Below, piece by piece: positions 4,609 to 57,293 of a DNA stretch of 64,000 bases. The DNA is from Desulfocapsaceae bacterium (GTDB taxonomy: Bacteria > Desulfobacterota > Desulfobulbia > Desulfobulbales > Desulfocapsaceae). Position 1 is the stretch's first letter; each line of letters begins with the position of its first letter. The notes under the pieces were generated by a model. It was given only the letters and a program-made list of their open reading frames with translations. It did not search any database and was not told the DNA's origin. The DNA lies in NCBI GenBank assembly GCA_030653035.1, contig JAUSAB010000036.1:1-64000 (forward strand), in the 5' to 3' direction. Position numbers and translations under genes: made by a program.

Positions 4609-5937
4609 TTACGAAATAAGATTAACCTCTGGGATACACCCAAAATCTATTATGGCAGTTGCATATCTATTGGGATCAGGCAATATTCGAAACATCGCAC
4701 CATCAATTAACCGATCCAGGTATCCCTCTTTTTCACCAATCTGACCAAGCACCCCTGCATTCATAAAATAGGTACCTGTAGTCAAATTTGCATTGAACTG
4801 GAATGCTATTTTATAACAACTTCCCGATTGCACAAACGGGATACTGGATGCAAGCGAAGGCGCTGTCATGGCCCCTCCTAATTCTATACCCGCTATTGTC
4901 TTAATCAACATACCAAACCGCACAGCGCTCACATCGGCATTAAACGTCACCGTATATTGGTAGCAATAACTCCTCCCATGTACCAGATTATTTACCTGCT
5001 GACCATCGAGGGTTAATATTATCGGCTGCCCTATGACAACTCCGTACGACTCATAATGAATGGTATTGCTTGGTTTTAAATACGGATCGAATGATTCCCA
5101 CACCTCTTCTTTAATTGCTTCAGGTTTGCTATCATCAAGCGGAGGTGTTTTTTGCTCATAACTCCGCATTTCTTTTTTAATTTGAGCGCGCTTTTCATCA
5201 GGCGCGTACAACATCTTTTGATAATTCCCAACAATATGTTTTGGTAAACCCTCGGAAATTTTTTCGCCAGAATCAAGAAGAATCGCACGATCACATAATG
5301 AAACAATAGTTGCCCCAGAATGCGAAACAAATAAAATCGTCGCCCCCCCCTCCTTTATTTGCTCAATACGCGAGAAACATTTCCGTTGAAACAACTCATC
5401 ACCGACAGCCAAAGCCTCATCTACAACAAGAATCTGCGGATTAACATTAATTGCCACAGCAAAGGCCAAACGAACCGACATACCACTCGAGTATGTTTTT
5501 ACCGGTTGCTCAATAAACGAACCAATATCAGCAAAAGCTACTATGTCCTCAAATCGGGATTCAATTTCCTCTTTACTCAAACCCAAGACGGCCGCATTCA
5601 TAAAAATATTTTCACGGCCTGTAAATTCGGGATTAAAGCCAGAACCCAATTCAAGGAGGGCGGCAATACGTCCATTTGTCTGGACATCCCCGCTCGTTGG
5701 ATTAAGAGTACCGCATATCATTTGTAATAAGGTTGATTTTCCACAACCGTTACGACCAATTATTCCGAGAGTTTCACCTTTCTTTATTTCAAAGGAGACA
5801 TCCTTGAGCGCCCAGAATTCTCGATAATACTGCCTATGCCCGCGCATCAACATTTGCAGAAGTCGATCACGCGGTTTATCATATATTTGATAACATTTAC
5901 AGAGATTATCAACCTTAATTGCTATTTCAGAGGACAT
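4609..5937 (-). CDS. wzt: O-antigen/polysaccharide ABC exporter ATPase (Wzt) with C-terminal glycan-binding domain
   Basis: A 442-residue ATP-binding subunit of the ABC exporter that flips lipid-linked O-chain across the inner membrane. Walker A is GRNGCGKST, the signature loop YSSGMSVRLAFA is of the polysaccharide-exporter type, and Walker B is ILVVDEALAVGDE. About 140 residues beyond the ATPase form the Wzt C-terminal domain, which in known systems recognises the modified non-reducing end of the glycan. The reading frame is open upstream to 6057, but that part overlaps the permease. The ATG at 5937 (MSSEIAIKV) overlaps the wzm stop by 11 bases and gives the family-typical N-terminus, so it is preferred. 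A glycan-capping role for the neighbouring sulfotransferase domain would fit this type of exporter, but that is inference. Confidence 0.92.
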   Translation of the reverse strand: MSSEIAIKVDNLCKCYQIYDKPRDRLLQMLMRGHRQYYREFWALKDVSFEIKKGETLGIIGRNGCGKSTLLQMICGTLNPTSGDVQTNGRIAALLELGSGFNPEFTGRENIFMNAAVLGLSKEEIESRFEDIVAFADIGSFIEQPVKTYSSGMSVRLAFAVAINVNPQILVVDEALAVGDELFQRKCFSRIEQIKEGGATILFVSHSGATIVSLCDRAILLDSGEKISEGLPKHIVGNYQKMLYAPDEKRAQIKKEMRSYEQKTPPLDDSKPEAIKEEVWESFDPYLKPSNTIHYESYGVVIGQPIILTLDGQQVNNLVHGRSYCYQYTVTFNADVSAVRFGMLIKTIAGIELGGAMTAPSLASSIPFVQSGSCYKIAFQFNANLTTGTYFMNAGVLGQIGEKEGYLDRLIDGAMFRILPDPNRYATAIIDFGCIPEVNLIS

Positions 5938-7600: not shown

Positions 7601-8338
7601 TTACAATTTTTCCAATTCCTCAGCTACAGGATGTGTCTTCAACTGTTCCAATTCTGTACGCTGCGCATCGTGAATGCTTTTAGTTTCAGCATTCGTCATA
7701 CCACTTACAGGATCAACATATTCAGGGTTTTTCTGCAAGCTATCCAGTTCTGCCCGTTGAGCTTTATGCGTTTCCTGAGTATCAACTAATTTCACTCCAG
7801 TTACAGGATCAACAGACTCGGGATCTTTCTGCCAGCGCTCCAGTTCTGCCCGTTGAGCTTTATGCGTTTCCTGAGTATCAACAAATTTCATACCACTTAC
7901 AGGATCGATAGCTTCGGGATCCTTAATGACGTCTTTGGTCGCTTGTGTACTTGCAGCATTTCCACTCGCCAAGGCGCCGGCTTTTATTTTCCCTATACCC
8001 CGATCACCAAAAAAACGAAGTATGATCATATTCCCTTTGTCATCATAAGACAAAGAAACATTTTGTTTACGAAGAGCCCTCAGGAAAAACTCTTCTGGAG
8101 TAACTCCCACATATTGCCCACTTAATAACAACTCATTCCATTTTTCATCAAAAACGACTCTGTATCCTGTTTGTTTATGAATCTCTTCAGCAACCAGCTT
8201 GAGGGGCTTCTCTTTTAACTCAAGAGATATCACCTTCTTTACCGGCACAGCATCCAGCTTCTGACTCAACGCCTGAGTGGAATACAGCACCAAGAACAGA
8301 CACAAAACAATAAATATTCTATACACTCTGAACCTCAC
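7601..8338 (-). CDS. Exported protein with STN-like domain and three 32-residue repeats
   Basis: A 245-residue protein with an N-terminal signal peptide or anchor (hydrophobic residues 7-22, cleavage probable after TQALS). Residues about 35-110 resemble the secretin/TonB short N-terminal (STN) fold: ISLELKEKPLKLVAEEI, then a VVFDEKW... strand and a GNMIILR end. Residues 140-235 are three tandem 32-residue repeats (core DPVSGMKFVDTQETHKAQRAE; the third is more divergent). The first two repeats are nearly identical at DNA level, a sign of recent duplication. A periplasmic role near a secretin or pilus machine is plausible from the STN fold, but no such genes adjoin it. Function unknown. Confidence 0.65.
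   Translation of the reverse strand: MRFRVYRIFIVLCLFLVLYSTQALSQKLDAVPVKKVISLELKEKPLKLVAEEIHKQTGYRVVFDEKWNELLLSGQYVGVTPEEFFLRALRKQNVSLSYDDKGNMIILRFFGDRGIGKIKAGALASGNAASTQATKDVIKDPEAIDPVSGMKFVDTQETHKAQRAELERWQKDPESVDPVTGVKLVDTQETHKAQRAELDSLQKNPEYVDPVSGMTNAETKSIHDAQRTELEQLKTHPVAEELEKL
7634..7921 (-). repeat. Three in-frame 96-bp tandem repeats
   Basis: Encodes residues 140-171, 172-203 and 204-235 of the exported STN-like protein. The first two units share a run of more than 40 identical bases covering AQRAEL and TQETH; the third is diverged. A whole-codon period means copy number can change without frameshift. Confidence 0.8.
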
Positions 8339-24032: not shown

Positions 24033-24101
24033 GAGCCACTCCTGATTATTTAGGGGCCGTTACGAAATAACTTTTACCTTCATATCCATTTACGTTACTC
24101 A

Positions 24102-24155
24102 GGCCATGGATGGCCCAGTGTCGCGGGTGCCATGGACGGCACAGGAGCAACCGAC
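24102..24155 (-). repeat. Dispersed hairpin repeat, copy A (nifU leader)
   Basis: About 47 bases match, in reverse complement, the repeats at 55443 and 56885 with five differences by eye. Inner stem GTGCC/GGCAC around ATGGAC replaces the GCGCC/GGCGC stem of the other copies: a paired change that keeps base pairing. It lies in the 312-base gap between the phosphohexomutase stop and nifU, which otherwise holds no supported gene. Confidence 0.75.
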
Positions 24156-24344
24156 CCCTTATGCCGTTAACGCTACTGCGATAGTATACAGTTATTTTTT
24201 GACAACGGCTGATATAAAAAAGAGTGAACAGAAAAAAGATTTTCCCATTCACTTCTCACTATTCACTTCCGCACACACTAAATACTTCACCAAGAAAAAT
24301 CAACGTGCAAGTGAAATCCCAACGAATTCAATCCAGCAAAAATT

Positions 24345-55442: not shown

Positions 55443-55504
55443 CCGCTCCCGCCAGTCACTCCTGCGCCGTCCATGGCGCCCGCGACACTTGGCCATCCCT
55501 GGCC
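55443..55504 (-). repeat. Dispersed hairpin repeat, copy B (after cca)
   Basis: A 62-base unit that matches copy C at 56885-56946 at 58 positions by eye. Hairpin at 55455-55486: outer GTCAC/GCGAC-type stem (one G-T wobble) and inner GCGCC/GGCGC stem around GTCCAT. Ends 4 bases before the cca stop codon region, so it lies immediately 3' of the gene. Confidence 0.85.
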
Positions 55505-55508
55505 GTCA

Positions 55509-57293
55509 TCATTCCAGTGACTCATTATTCCTGCCCTTCTGCTCCTGCTCCAGATAGCGCCGCACCCATATATGTGCGTCTTCCTTACTGGCCACCTCAC
55601 CCTCCACCTGTGCCTCCTGCAGCGCGTCAAGGATCTTTGCGAAAAGAGGACCTGGCGGCAACGAGAAGGAGGTGATCAGATCCTGACCATTCAGCAAACG
55701 CGGTCCTTTGATGGCGGGCTGGATATATTGCTCATAGATCGCCAACACCTCACCCAGCAGCCCGGACAGTTCCGCCTCCATCATTGGCGGTTTTTTCTCA
55801 CCCTGACCTGCCAGACTATCAGCCATGGCCAGCAGGAACAGTCCAATCAGATCATCTCCCGCCTTTTTACTGAGCTTCAAACAGGCCTTGCGGCTCAGGG
55901 GTTGTTCCCGCCGCACATTGCAGAGATGAAAAGGTTGCATGTGCATCCCGATCAGGGCCGCAACCCGTTCCCGGTTATCATTGCTCCACCTCAGTTCCCG
56001 GCCCAGCTTCATCACCAGCTCCTTGCCCACCTGATCGTGATTATAAAAGGTGACCCGGCCATCCTTATCCTCACGCACCGCCACGGTCACAGGTTTACCC
56101 AGGTCATGGAGCAGGGCCGCCCATTTCAACCACACCTTCATCCCCGGCTGTCCAATATACTCTCTGATCCTGGCCGCACACTCAGGATAAAACCGGTCAG
56201 GATCTGCCAGAATCTCTTCCATAAAGCCAAGGGCGGCCAGACTGTGATGAAACACATCCAGATGATGAAACCCCGGCTGCTCCATGCCCACCCCTCGGGC
56301 AAGCGCCGGGATAATCTGCCAGAGCAATCCGACTTGTGCCATCTCCCCCAGCACCGCGTGGGCCCGGTCAGAGACCATGATCAGATCCAGTTCATGGCTG
56401 ATCCGCTCAACCGAAACCGTACGGATCAAGTCCACGTGCCGCTCAATCTCTACCCTTGTCGCCTCTTCTATCCTGAAATCAAGGGTAGCACAGAGGCGAT
56501 AGCCACGCAGCATCCGCAGGGGGTCAGCAAGAAAGGCCTGGGGACAGGCCCGCAGGATCTTTTCTTCCAGGTCATCCAGACCGTGCAGGGGATCAAGCAG
56601 GTGCAGCGTGACAGCACGATCCAGCAATGCCGCAAAGGAGACCCCCATGGCATTGACCGTATAATCACGTAGCCCCAAATCCGCTTCAATGGTTTGCGCC
56701 CTCTGACGAAAGCTCGAAAAATCGACAGTCACCGCTCCCGCCATCCCTGGCTCCCACGGATTTAGGCCATCCTTGGCCGTCACCGCTCCCGCCATCCCTG
56801 GCTCCCACGGATTTAGGCCATCCTTGGCCGTCACCGCTCCCGCCATCCCTGGCTCCCACGGATTTAGGCCATCCTTGGCCGTCACCGCTCCCGCTAGTCG
56901 CTCCTGCGCCGTCCATGGCGCCCGCGACACTTGACCATCCTTGGCCATCGTCCCTGGCTTTCGCGGATTTAAGCCGTCCTTGGCCGTCAGTCCCCGCCAC
57001 ACCACCCGTCCCGCCTCTTCCCCGGGACAGCCGAGGGGAACAAAAGCGCCGCCACCCAACTCGGCAATCAAAGCCCGGCAGCAGGCCTCGGCGTCATAAG
57101 CCACGGTGATGTCCAGATCGCCAGGAATCCTGCCCAGCAGCCAGTCGCGCACCGTACCGCCAATGACAAAAAGATCCATGCCCTGCCTCTCTGCCACCCG
57201 CGAAAGGGCCGTGATCAACCGCTTGGGATAGCGAGCCAGCCGCTCACGCAACATGGTCAGATCAGGGGGACTATTGTTTCTTTCTTCTTTCAT
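55509..57293 (-). CDS. cca: CCA tRNA nucleotidyltransferase / poly(A) polymerase family with HD domain and in-frame repeat insertion
   Basis: A 594-residue class II tRNA nucleotidyltransferase. Head: VIGGTVRDWLLGRIPGDLDIT (44-63, catalytic DxD-type carboxylates), then VDFSSFRQRAQTIEADLGLRDYTVNAMG (189-217) and the RNA-binding neck/body (DPLHGLDDLEEKILRACPQAF..DPLRMLRGYR). An HD phosphohydrolase domain follows (ALLHDLGKPV). Residues about 103-188 are foreign: three exact copies of AKDGLNPWEPGMAGAVT plus the translation of hairpin repeat copy C. They sit in a surface loop between two head strands, and the frame stays open. Adds CCA to tRNA 3' ends, or may be the A-adding member of a pair. Confidence 0.9.
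   Translation of the reverse strand: MKEERNNSPPDLTMLRERLARYPKRLITALSRVAERQGMDLFVIGGTVRDWLLGRIPGDLDITVAYDAEACCRALIAELGGGAFVPLGCPGEEAGRVVWRGLTAKDGLNPRKPGTMAKDGQVSRAPWTAQERLAGAVTAKDGLNPWEPGMAGAVTAKDGLNPWEPGMAGAVTAKDGLNPWEPGMAGAVTVDFSSFRQRAQTIEADLGLRDYTVNAMGVSFAALLDRAVTLHLLDPLHGLDDLEEKILRACPQAFLADPLRMLRGYRLCATLDFRIEEATRVEIERHVDLIRTVSVERISHELDLIMVSDRAHAVLGEMAQVGLLWQIIPALARGVGMEQPGFHHLDVFHHSLAALGFMEEILADPDRFYPECAARIREYIGQPGMKVWLKWAALLHDLGKPVTVAVREDKDGRVTFYNHDQVGKELVMKLGRELRWSNDNRERVAALIGMHMQPFHLCNVRREQPLSRKACLKLSKKAGDDLIGLFLLAMADSLAGQGEKKPPMMEAELSGLLGEVLAIYEQYIQPAIKGPRLLNGQDLITSFSLPPGPLFAKILDALQEAQVEGEVASKEDAHIWVRRYLEQEQKGRNNESLE
56728..56880 (-). repeat. 51-bp tandem repeat, three identical units, inside cca
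   Basis: Units 56728-56778, 56779-56829 and 56830-56880, each 51 bases (17 codons), identical by eye. Degenerate partial units continue at 56881-56894 and 56947-56986. Each unit contains GGCCATCCTTGGCC and CCGCTCCCGC, which also occur in the dispersed hairpin repeat, so the array probably grew from it. Confidence 0.9.
56885..56946 (-). repeat. Dispersed hairpin repeat, copy C (inside cca reading frame)
   Basis: Hairpin at 56897-56928 with perfect GTCGC/GCGAC outer stem and GCGCC/GGCGC inner stem. It is translated in frame as part of the insertion (DGQVSRAPWTAQERLAGAV). 58 of 62 positions equal copy B. Confidence 0.88.

Follow-up and report, generated by a model that had tools for sequence, protein, structure and literature searches.

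Short palindromic elements inside protein-coding genes of a Desulfocapsaceae genus, with an in-frame insert in cca

Rickettsia has been the main case for selfish DNA creating segments of proteins, with genome decay as the alternative explanation there. The elements in question are described as palindromic repeats that lie within Rickettsia protein genes and keep the frame (PMC3767692). A stretch of 64,000 nucleotides from a Desulfocapsaceae bacterium, related to sulfur-metabolising bacteria and itself uncultured (assembly GCA_030653035.1, contig JAUSAB010000036.1, positions 1 to 64,000; hereafter the window) raises the question of whether DNA of this kind has entered the cca reading frame in another phylum and, if so, whether it is still moving. 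The original prediction, made from the letters of the window, had proposed a coding-tolerant family of dispersed palindromic repeats like the Rickettsia palindromic elements (RPEs). Our analysis supports that proposal and refines it to two interlocking families; the observation is real and larger than first noted and, judged by shared features, the Rickettsia analogy is right in kind.

The three hairpin copies were found where they had been placed, with copy A at 24102–24155 (minus strand), copy B at 55443–55504 and copy C at 56885–56946, and, as reported, 58 of the 62 positions are identical between B and C. The mobile unit proved not to be the 62-mer but a 54-nt unit (type I) nested in a 51-nt unit (type II), the 62-mer taking in an arm of type II. 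The features of the window, in window coordinates, are as follows.

24045..24216, strand not assigned: MITE with copy A as passenger (full-length alignment to the MITE of genome G081)
24098..24151, minus: type I, copy A (copy comparison)
55455..55508, plus: type I, copy B, abutting the cca stop codon; 55443–55454 is a type II arm
55509..57293, minus: cca (CCA-adding / poly(A) polymerase family), 594 aa; PF01743, PF12627, PF01966, PF13735; frame open through the insert
56728..56880, plus: three identical head-to-tail 51-nt type II units (tandem repeat search, blast), in the register of the blast query and 2 nt off the codon-based insert ends
56730..56987, minus: cca insert, 258 nt, residues 103–188 (comparison with relatives, AlphaFold model)
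56881..56987, plus: fourth type II unit, split by a nested type I (copy comparison; like nesting at loci L003, L005, L011 and in recD)
56897..56950, plus: type I, 54 nt, being copy C minus its type II arm (copy comparison)

The cca frame is intact through the insert, and the extra stretch relative to related enzymes is the predicted one of 86 codons (residues 103–188). Its 258 nt consist of 105 nt (type II with nested type I) and 153 nt (three type II units), and Tandem Repeats Finder reported at 56728–56894 a unit of 51 nt in 3.3 copies with 100% matches. Most of the insert is accordingly type II, in three exact tandem copies, and not the hairpin originally noticed. An AlphaFold model of the protein (13 sequences) had a mean pLDDT of 79, with most of the chain above 85 and residues 102–185 below 50, values that are compatible with disorder but are no proof of it; the model places this low-confidence insert in a loop between strands 94–99 and 188–194.

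Type I has two hairpins (main-subfamily consensus GTCGCTCCTGCGCCGTCCATGGCGCCCGCGACACTGGGCCGTCCCTGGCCTGCG), the first formed by two 5-bp stems and the second by one stem of 5–6 bp, and type II (approximately CCGCTCCCGCCATCCCTGGCTCCCGCGGCATTAGGCCATCCTTGGCCGTCA) has the same layout. In all the nested cases listed above, cca included, type II holds type I in the loop of its first hairpin. Type IV, a palindromic piece of 27 nt, occupies the corresponding loop of type I in 3/3 places (L027; L111 at 5596–5622 and 7951–7977), which suggests insertion into hairpin loops. In several copies (L023, L028, L065, L071) one end is replaced by a CCAGGTAAGCGAAGCGAAG-like motif, type III. Type I was also seen within another repeat (CCCTCTCCCTGAGGGAGAGG-like), beside CCCTCAC or CCCCAC (L018, L020, L025).

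The fold energy of type I was −26.7 kcal/mol, in comparison to a mean of −20.0 (SD 2.9) for mononucleotide shuffles. RNAalifold recovered both hairpins for a second subfamily of 14 copies. Because its result for the full set of 148 distinct copies, and likewise for the main subfamily, was just a 3-bp stem, the pairs of the named structure were counted on the 134 distinct main-subfamily copies. Standard pairs occupied 90.8% of cells, whereas 500 column shuffles averaged 87.6% and never exceeded 88.4%. This is support and not a probability, as the structure tested is the fold of the consensus, the copies are related and the count leans towards that structure. Pair 11–24 was C-G in 86 copies and T-A in 20, and pair 12–23 was G-C in 106 and A-T in 11. 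Copy A carries GTGCC/GGCAC where B and C carry GCGCC/GGCGC, and this exchange of a C-G for a T-A pair, which the original prediction had read as compensatory, recurs among the 134 copies, even though RNAalifold fell short of the full structure on that set.

Many more copies were found in the same genome, inside genes. A 60-nt query gave 37 matches at E up to 1, of which 30 were at E <= 2.7e-5 (more than chance), and a type II query gave 36 at E up to 1. The own-genome loci examined, taken from contig C52 whole up to 22,781 and from the vicinity of hits on other contigs, held 93 element hits (type I 52, type II 29, type III 9, type IV 3) in 60 blocks, a count that keeps weak rows at C82:13299 (17 nt), C82:15339, C108:988, C89:27182, C26:15170 and C117:57695. 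A Pfam domain was present in 36 of the 39 spanning ORFs of at least 240 aa, and these hold 42/60 blocks, four of them within 20 residues of the ORF end and three being weak matches (C82:13299, C89:27182, C117:57695). The hosts, with gene names that are our reading of Pfam domains, include mfd, uvrB, recB, recC, recD, cca, a purL-like gene, glnD, a menaquinone-biosynthesis gene, lnt, rsmB, tamB and genes for an ABC-F protein, a 5'-nucleotidase and a thiamine-diphosphate enzyme. Blocks in Pfam ORFs occur in both orientations, and every block with at least two type I or II hits has a single orientation throughout (19/19). Elsewhere in the window, a 96-nt direct tandem repeat lies at 7696–7921 (2.4 copies, 85% matches).

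Taken as a whole, types I and II are best explained, with a probability of roughly 0.8, as non-autonomous mobile palindromic elements that are still inserting across one genus. Type I would insert mostly 3' of a G, often of YG, with a fixed right end and without recognisable target duplication, and type II would prefer sites resembling its own junction. New copies would land beside or inside earlier ones and build up tandem or nested blocks of one orientation. As each unit has a length of 3n and few stops, insertion into a gene would often keep the frame open, and insertions would persist where the encoded peptide is tolerated, for example in the loop of cca.

The flanks of type I bear on the first of these steps. 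At 49 single sites, counted after leaving out MITE-borne, tandem, type II-nested and other-repeat copies and repeated 9-nt left flanks, 38 had G at −1, with C before it in 23 and T in 11. Immediately after the element no base was conserved (G 15, C 14, T 14, A 6), yet the right flank was not featureless, with a C at +5 in 30/49. Among 74 distinct non-tandem sites the element ended in CG in 68 and the left flank in 28, the last four bases of the element being TGCG in 40, GTCG in 18 and others in 16. The +5 C aside, these flanks fit the expectation for insertion 3' of a short target without duplication, which is one mark of IS200/IS605-type single-strand transposition, hairpin-marked ends being another; such insertion would explain the tandems, the element's own end being a target. 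For type II, the second base after the element was C in 30/38 hits and the last base matched the left flank in 20/38 (A/A 11, G/G 9), so a short target duplication may occur there, some of these 38 rows being type I copies misread as type II.

It is possible, at somewhat less than even odds, that the elements are moved by single-strand (HUH/Y1-like) strand transfer, with a transposase acting in trans; for REP sequences a guide-and-cleavage model is given in PMC8266576. A Y1_Tnp match is present in 17/17 genus genomes. The flanks (up to 1.5 kb) of 35 Y1-transposase loci examined contained types I, II or III in no case (0/35), with one weak type IV match, and no RAYT or IS200 adjacency to the elements was seen.

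The same transposase matches invite a related alternative, unlikely in our view, in which the repeats belong to the known REP superfamilies (CGTC/GTAG) and owe their movement to RAYT transposases. Like those repeats (TnpA-REP systems), the present elements are palindromic, non-autonomous and intragenic, with many copies in recBCD and uvr genes as reported in PMC3733652, and a Y1_Tnp match occurs in every genome of the genus. The same paper defines the CGTC-tagged REP by an unpaired end CGTC, a stem of 8–9 bp, a loop of 4–5 nt and a CCA tail, and it counts RPE-4 and RPE-6 among the CGTC repeats (PMC3733652, PMC3767692). Genic copies with an open frame, a feature of RPE-4 and RPE-6, are shared here at the level of the reading frame. 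Type I has two hairpins, lacks the tagged 8–9 bp stem, begins with GTCGC in its consensus and mostly ends with TGCG or GTCG; a terminal GTAG was found at 0/74 distinct sites, where the consensus first bases are GTCG. REPs form predominantly head-to-head dimers, whereas the multi-hit blocks here all run in one orientation, and the Y1_Tnp loci examined yielded no gene flanked by copies of types I–III in the manner of a RAYT gene. Most reported REPs are intergenic (PMC3733652), in contrast to the majority of blocks here, which lie in domain-bearing ORFs. By the features tested, the family falls outside the tagged REP families.

Type I is concentrated in one genus. It was found in 15/17 genus genomes (own included) and in 2/76 other genomes of the family, with at most 10 candidates scored per genome, and at E 1e-5 in 10/395 genomes over the phylum, with 2 candidates scored per genome, eight of the ten lying outside the genus. 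Of six loci from these eight genomes, two have copies inside ORFs with Mu-transposase (L277) or MmeI (L279) Pfam domains, and in two more the copy is N-terminal in an ORF with AcrB (L278) or amidotransferase (L274) domains; for the other two, L276 had no Pfam family and L275 lay at a sequence end. Among 72,556 plasmid records type I had one match and type II none, and type I had no match in 50,697 phage records. A type I-like unit lies within an annotated DNA primase frame of the enterobacterial plasmid of Lonsdalea populi (L280, 3001–3052; one sequence). A literature search, with subscription papers (the original RPE papers included) largely outside its coverage, returned no description of these elements in this lineage; PMC2996986 reports multicopy palindromic sequences in Geobacter that are intergenic, and one intragenic multicopy sequence.

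Within the genus, recC, recB and recD were compared over 12, 13 and 10 genomes, respectively, and occupied and empty orthologues were often seen to differ by whole units. In recC the difference was 54 nt (G075 vs G079); in recB it was 54 nt in G080 vs G077 and 162 nt, or three units, in G081; and recD of the own genome (G000) carries a whole-unit insertion of 105 nt in comparison to its orthologues. Truncated or composite inserts also occur, among them a 42-nt one in the recC gene of G084 and a 57-nt one at column 150 of recD.

For cca, the expectation that relatives would lack the insert was borne out in 10/12 informative relatives (L038 not being counted as its site was not covered), while two others carry type II units at the identical nucleotide, one unit in L031 and two in L032. 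In an overlapping genus set of 15 cca loci, five of which could not be parsed at the site by motif and were left uncounted (G073, G077, G078, G080, G082), the site was occupied in 3/10 (G000, G079, G081) and empty in 7/10. Shared inserts at one site partly approach the vertical descent that the original prediction had named as contrary to it. Plain vertical descent is nonetheless a misfit, because inserts agree between carriers at 49/51, 95/102 and 50/51 positions (93–98%) whereas the 150-nt flanks agree at 71–81%, and because the site is empty in near relatives of G000 as well as of G079, among them G086, which is 95–98% identical to G079 around it. As read from these alignments, the cca pattern favours separate recent insertions at one site.

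These comparisons also weigh on a second and rather improbable alternative, in which the gene inserts are old vertical loops that were lost precisely by recombination between flanking short repeats, with little current mobility. Non-sister lineages are occupied at one site, both in cca and at recD column 639 (occupied in G000, G073, G075, G077, where it is diverged, and G081; empty in G079, G084, G085 and G087), and GTCA or GGCG flanking some copies could support deletion. For cca this account is already disfavoured by the identities above and by the empty site of G086; the pattern at recD column 639 also fits an old insertion followed by precise loss, and there the account may still hold. Against it stand, moreover, the many near-identical type I copies of G081, mostly multiplied via its MITE.

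That MITE also changes the standing of copy A, which lies beside a gene named nifU in the original prediction and had been taken for a free-standing insertion. It sits inside a MITE of about 170 bp with inverted ends (as read from the alignments). Window positions 24045–24216 aligned to the G081 MITE with a score of 89, part of which comes from type I itself, and the best of 100 shuffles reached 23, in an alignment with that locus on its opposite strand. In G081 a MITE of about 200 bp was present in 23 of the 30 loci listed (among L187–L212), with many near-identical copies carrying type I, and 32/168 genus copies of type I were classed as MITE-borne, including intergenic copies other than A.

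A third alternative, which we regard as very unlikely, takes the repeats for regulatory RNA hairpins (attenuators or stability elements) whose presence in genes is incidental. The stable fold of type I and the intergenic position of some copies would suit this role. Most blocks, however, lie in Pfam ORFs and in both orientations, no Rfam family was found at gathering score within the window, and nearly a fifth of the genus copies of type I were classed as MITE-borne.

Turning to the encoded peptides, all six frames of type I are free of stops, a property shared by 51% of its dinucleotide shuffles; for type II only four frames are open. Adaptation of the element to readability in all frames was considered and rejected on these two figures. 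Host genes do show a bias of frame, observed on 79 copies in 40 clusters within ORFs selected by length and not by Pfam (at least 220 aa, 30 aa on each side of the copy, 1.6 times the next ORF). The two Arg-rich frames of type I were used in 1/40 clusters against 10.7 expected (P 6e-5), the null taking in the target preference and 36 long window ORFs; a chi-square on clusters over all six frames gave only P 0.004, and two copies in one Arg-rich frame, in the MITE array of G081 (L189), had been dropped by the MITE filter. The near absence of these frames from host genes suggests that the insert peptides are probably made and filtered, and selection seems to act on the peptide that type I encodes. 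We infer that selection on translated peptides lies behind the frame bias and that the decorated enzymes would stay active. The genes cca and lnt are usually essential. That the decorated genes are decaying pseudogenes, as the recB and recD of G080 (split over frames, with a masked stretch) might suggest, is highly improbable given the long open frames with recognised domains, cca and lnt included, and the frame bias.

In the recC-recB-recD genes of the own genome, positions 3308–12589 of L111 (G000:C52) hold eight blocks in one cluster, one in recC, three in recB and four in recD, with the three frames open; uvrB and mfd hold one block each. As C52 had been scanned whole up to 22,781 and other contigs in the vicinity of hits, the enrichment was recalculated from genome-wide searches alone (57 hits), giving 5/42 blocks in the 9.3 kb of recC-recB-recD vs 0.11 expected (P 1.5e-7, an optimistic value since the gene set was chosen after the data had been seen). 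The pattern recurs in other bacteria: Di Nocera and colleagues report many intragenic REPs in excision-repair and recBCD genes (PMC3733652), and the RPE-4 hosts named in PMC3767692 include an exonuclease of the recB family. The recBCD concentration is more simply explained by large proteins having tolerant loops, as column 455 of recB is a site of unrelated, variable inserts in G077, G078 and G080. A more speculative and doubtful idea is that palindromic elements of unrelated phyla repeatedly colonise recBCD, uvrB and mfd since weakened hairpin- and end-processing enzymes would favour the survival of palindromic DNA. If true, a selfish element would be decorating, in frame, the very machinery that would destroy it.

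Among known systems, the mobile elements proposed here most resemble RPE-1 to RPE-7, which are described as palindromic, genic, frame-keeping and located at the same loci of orthologues, with hosts that likewise include a recB-family exonuclease and uvrB (PMC3767692, PMC3733652). RPEs are described as 100–150 bp long (PMC3767692), whereas the present elements have two hairpins and come in two fixed lengths, 51 and 54 nt. They also differ in sequence and phylum, lack a CGTC-tagged 8–9 bp stem and form same-orientation tandems in a host that, unlike Rickettsia, is probably free-living to judge from MAG titles. Prokaryotic MITEs are similarly non-autonomous and dispersed, and type I rides in one in this genus, but types I and II have internal hairpins in place of terminal inverted repeats. 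PARCEL (PMC2996958) and the intragenic enterobacterial RU elements (PMC2759123; units of 103–168 bp) are also described as palindromic or small mobile DNA entering proteins.

In summary, behaviour like that of the RPEs is now seen in another phylum, with occupied and empty orthologues side by side in a genus where most genomes carry type I. The recBCD concentration matches the pattern reported for REPs elsewhere (PMC3733652) and makes that pattern testable. The family offers a large set of natural experiments in which new loops have been accepted by proteins, together with a frame filter that can be put to the test.
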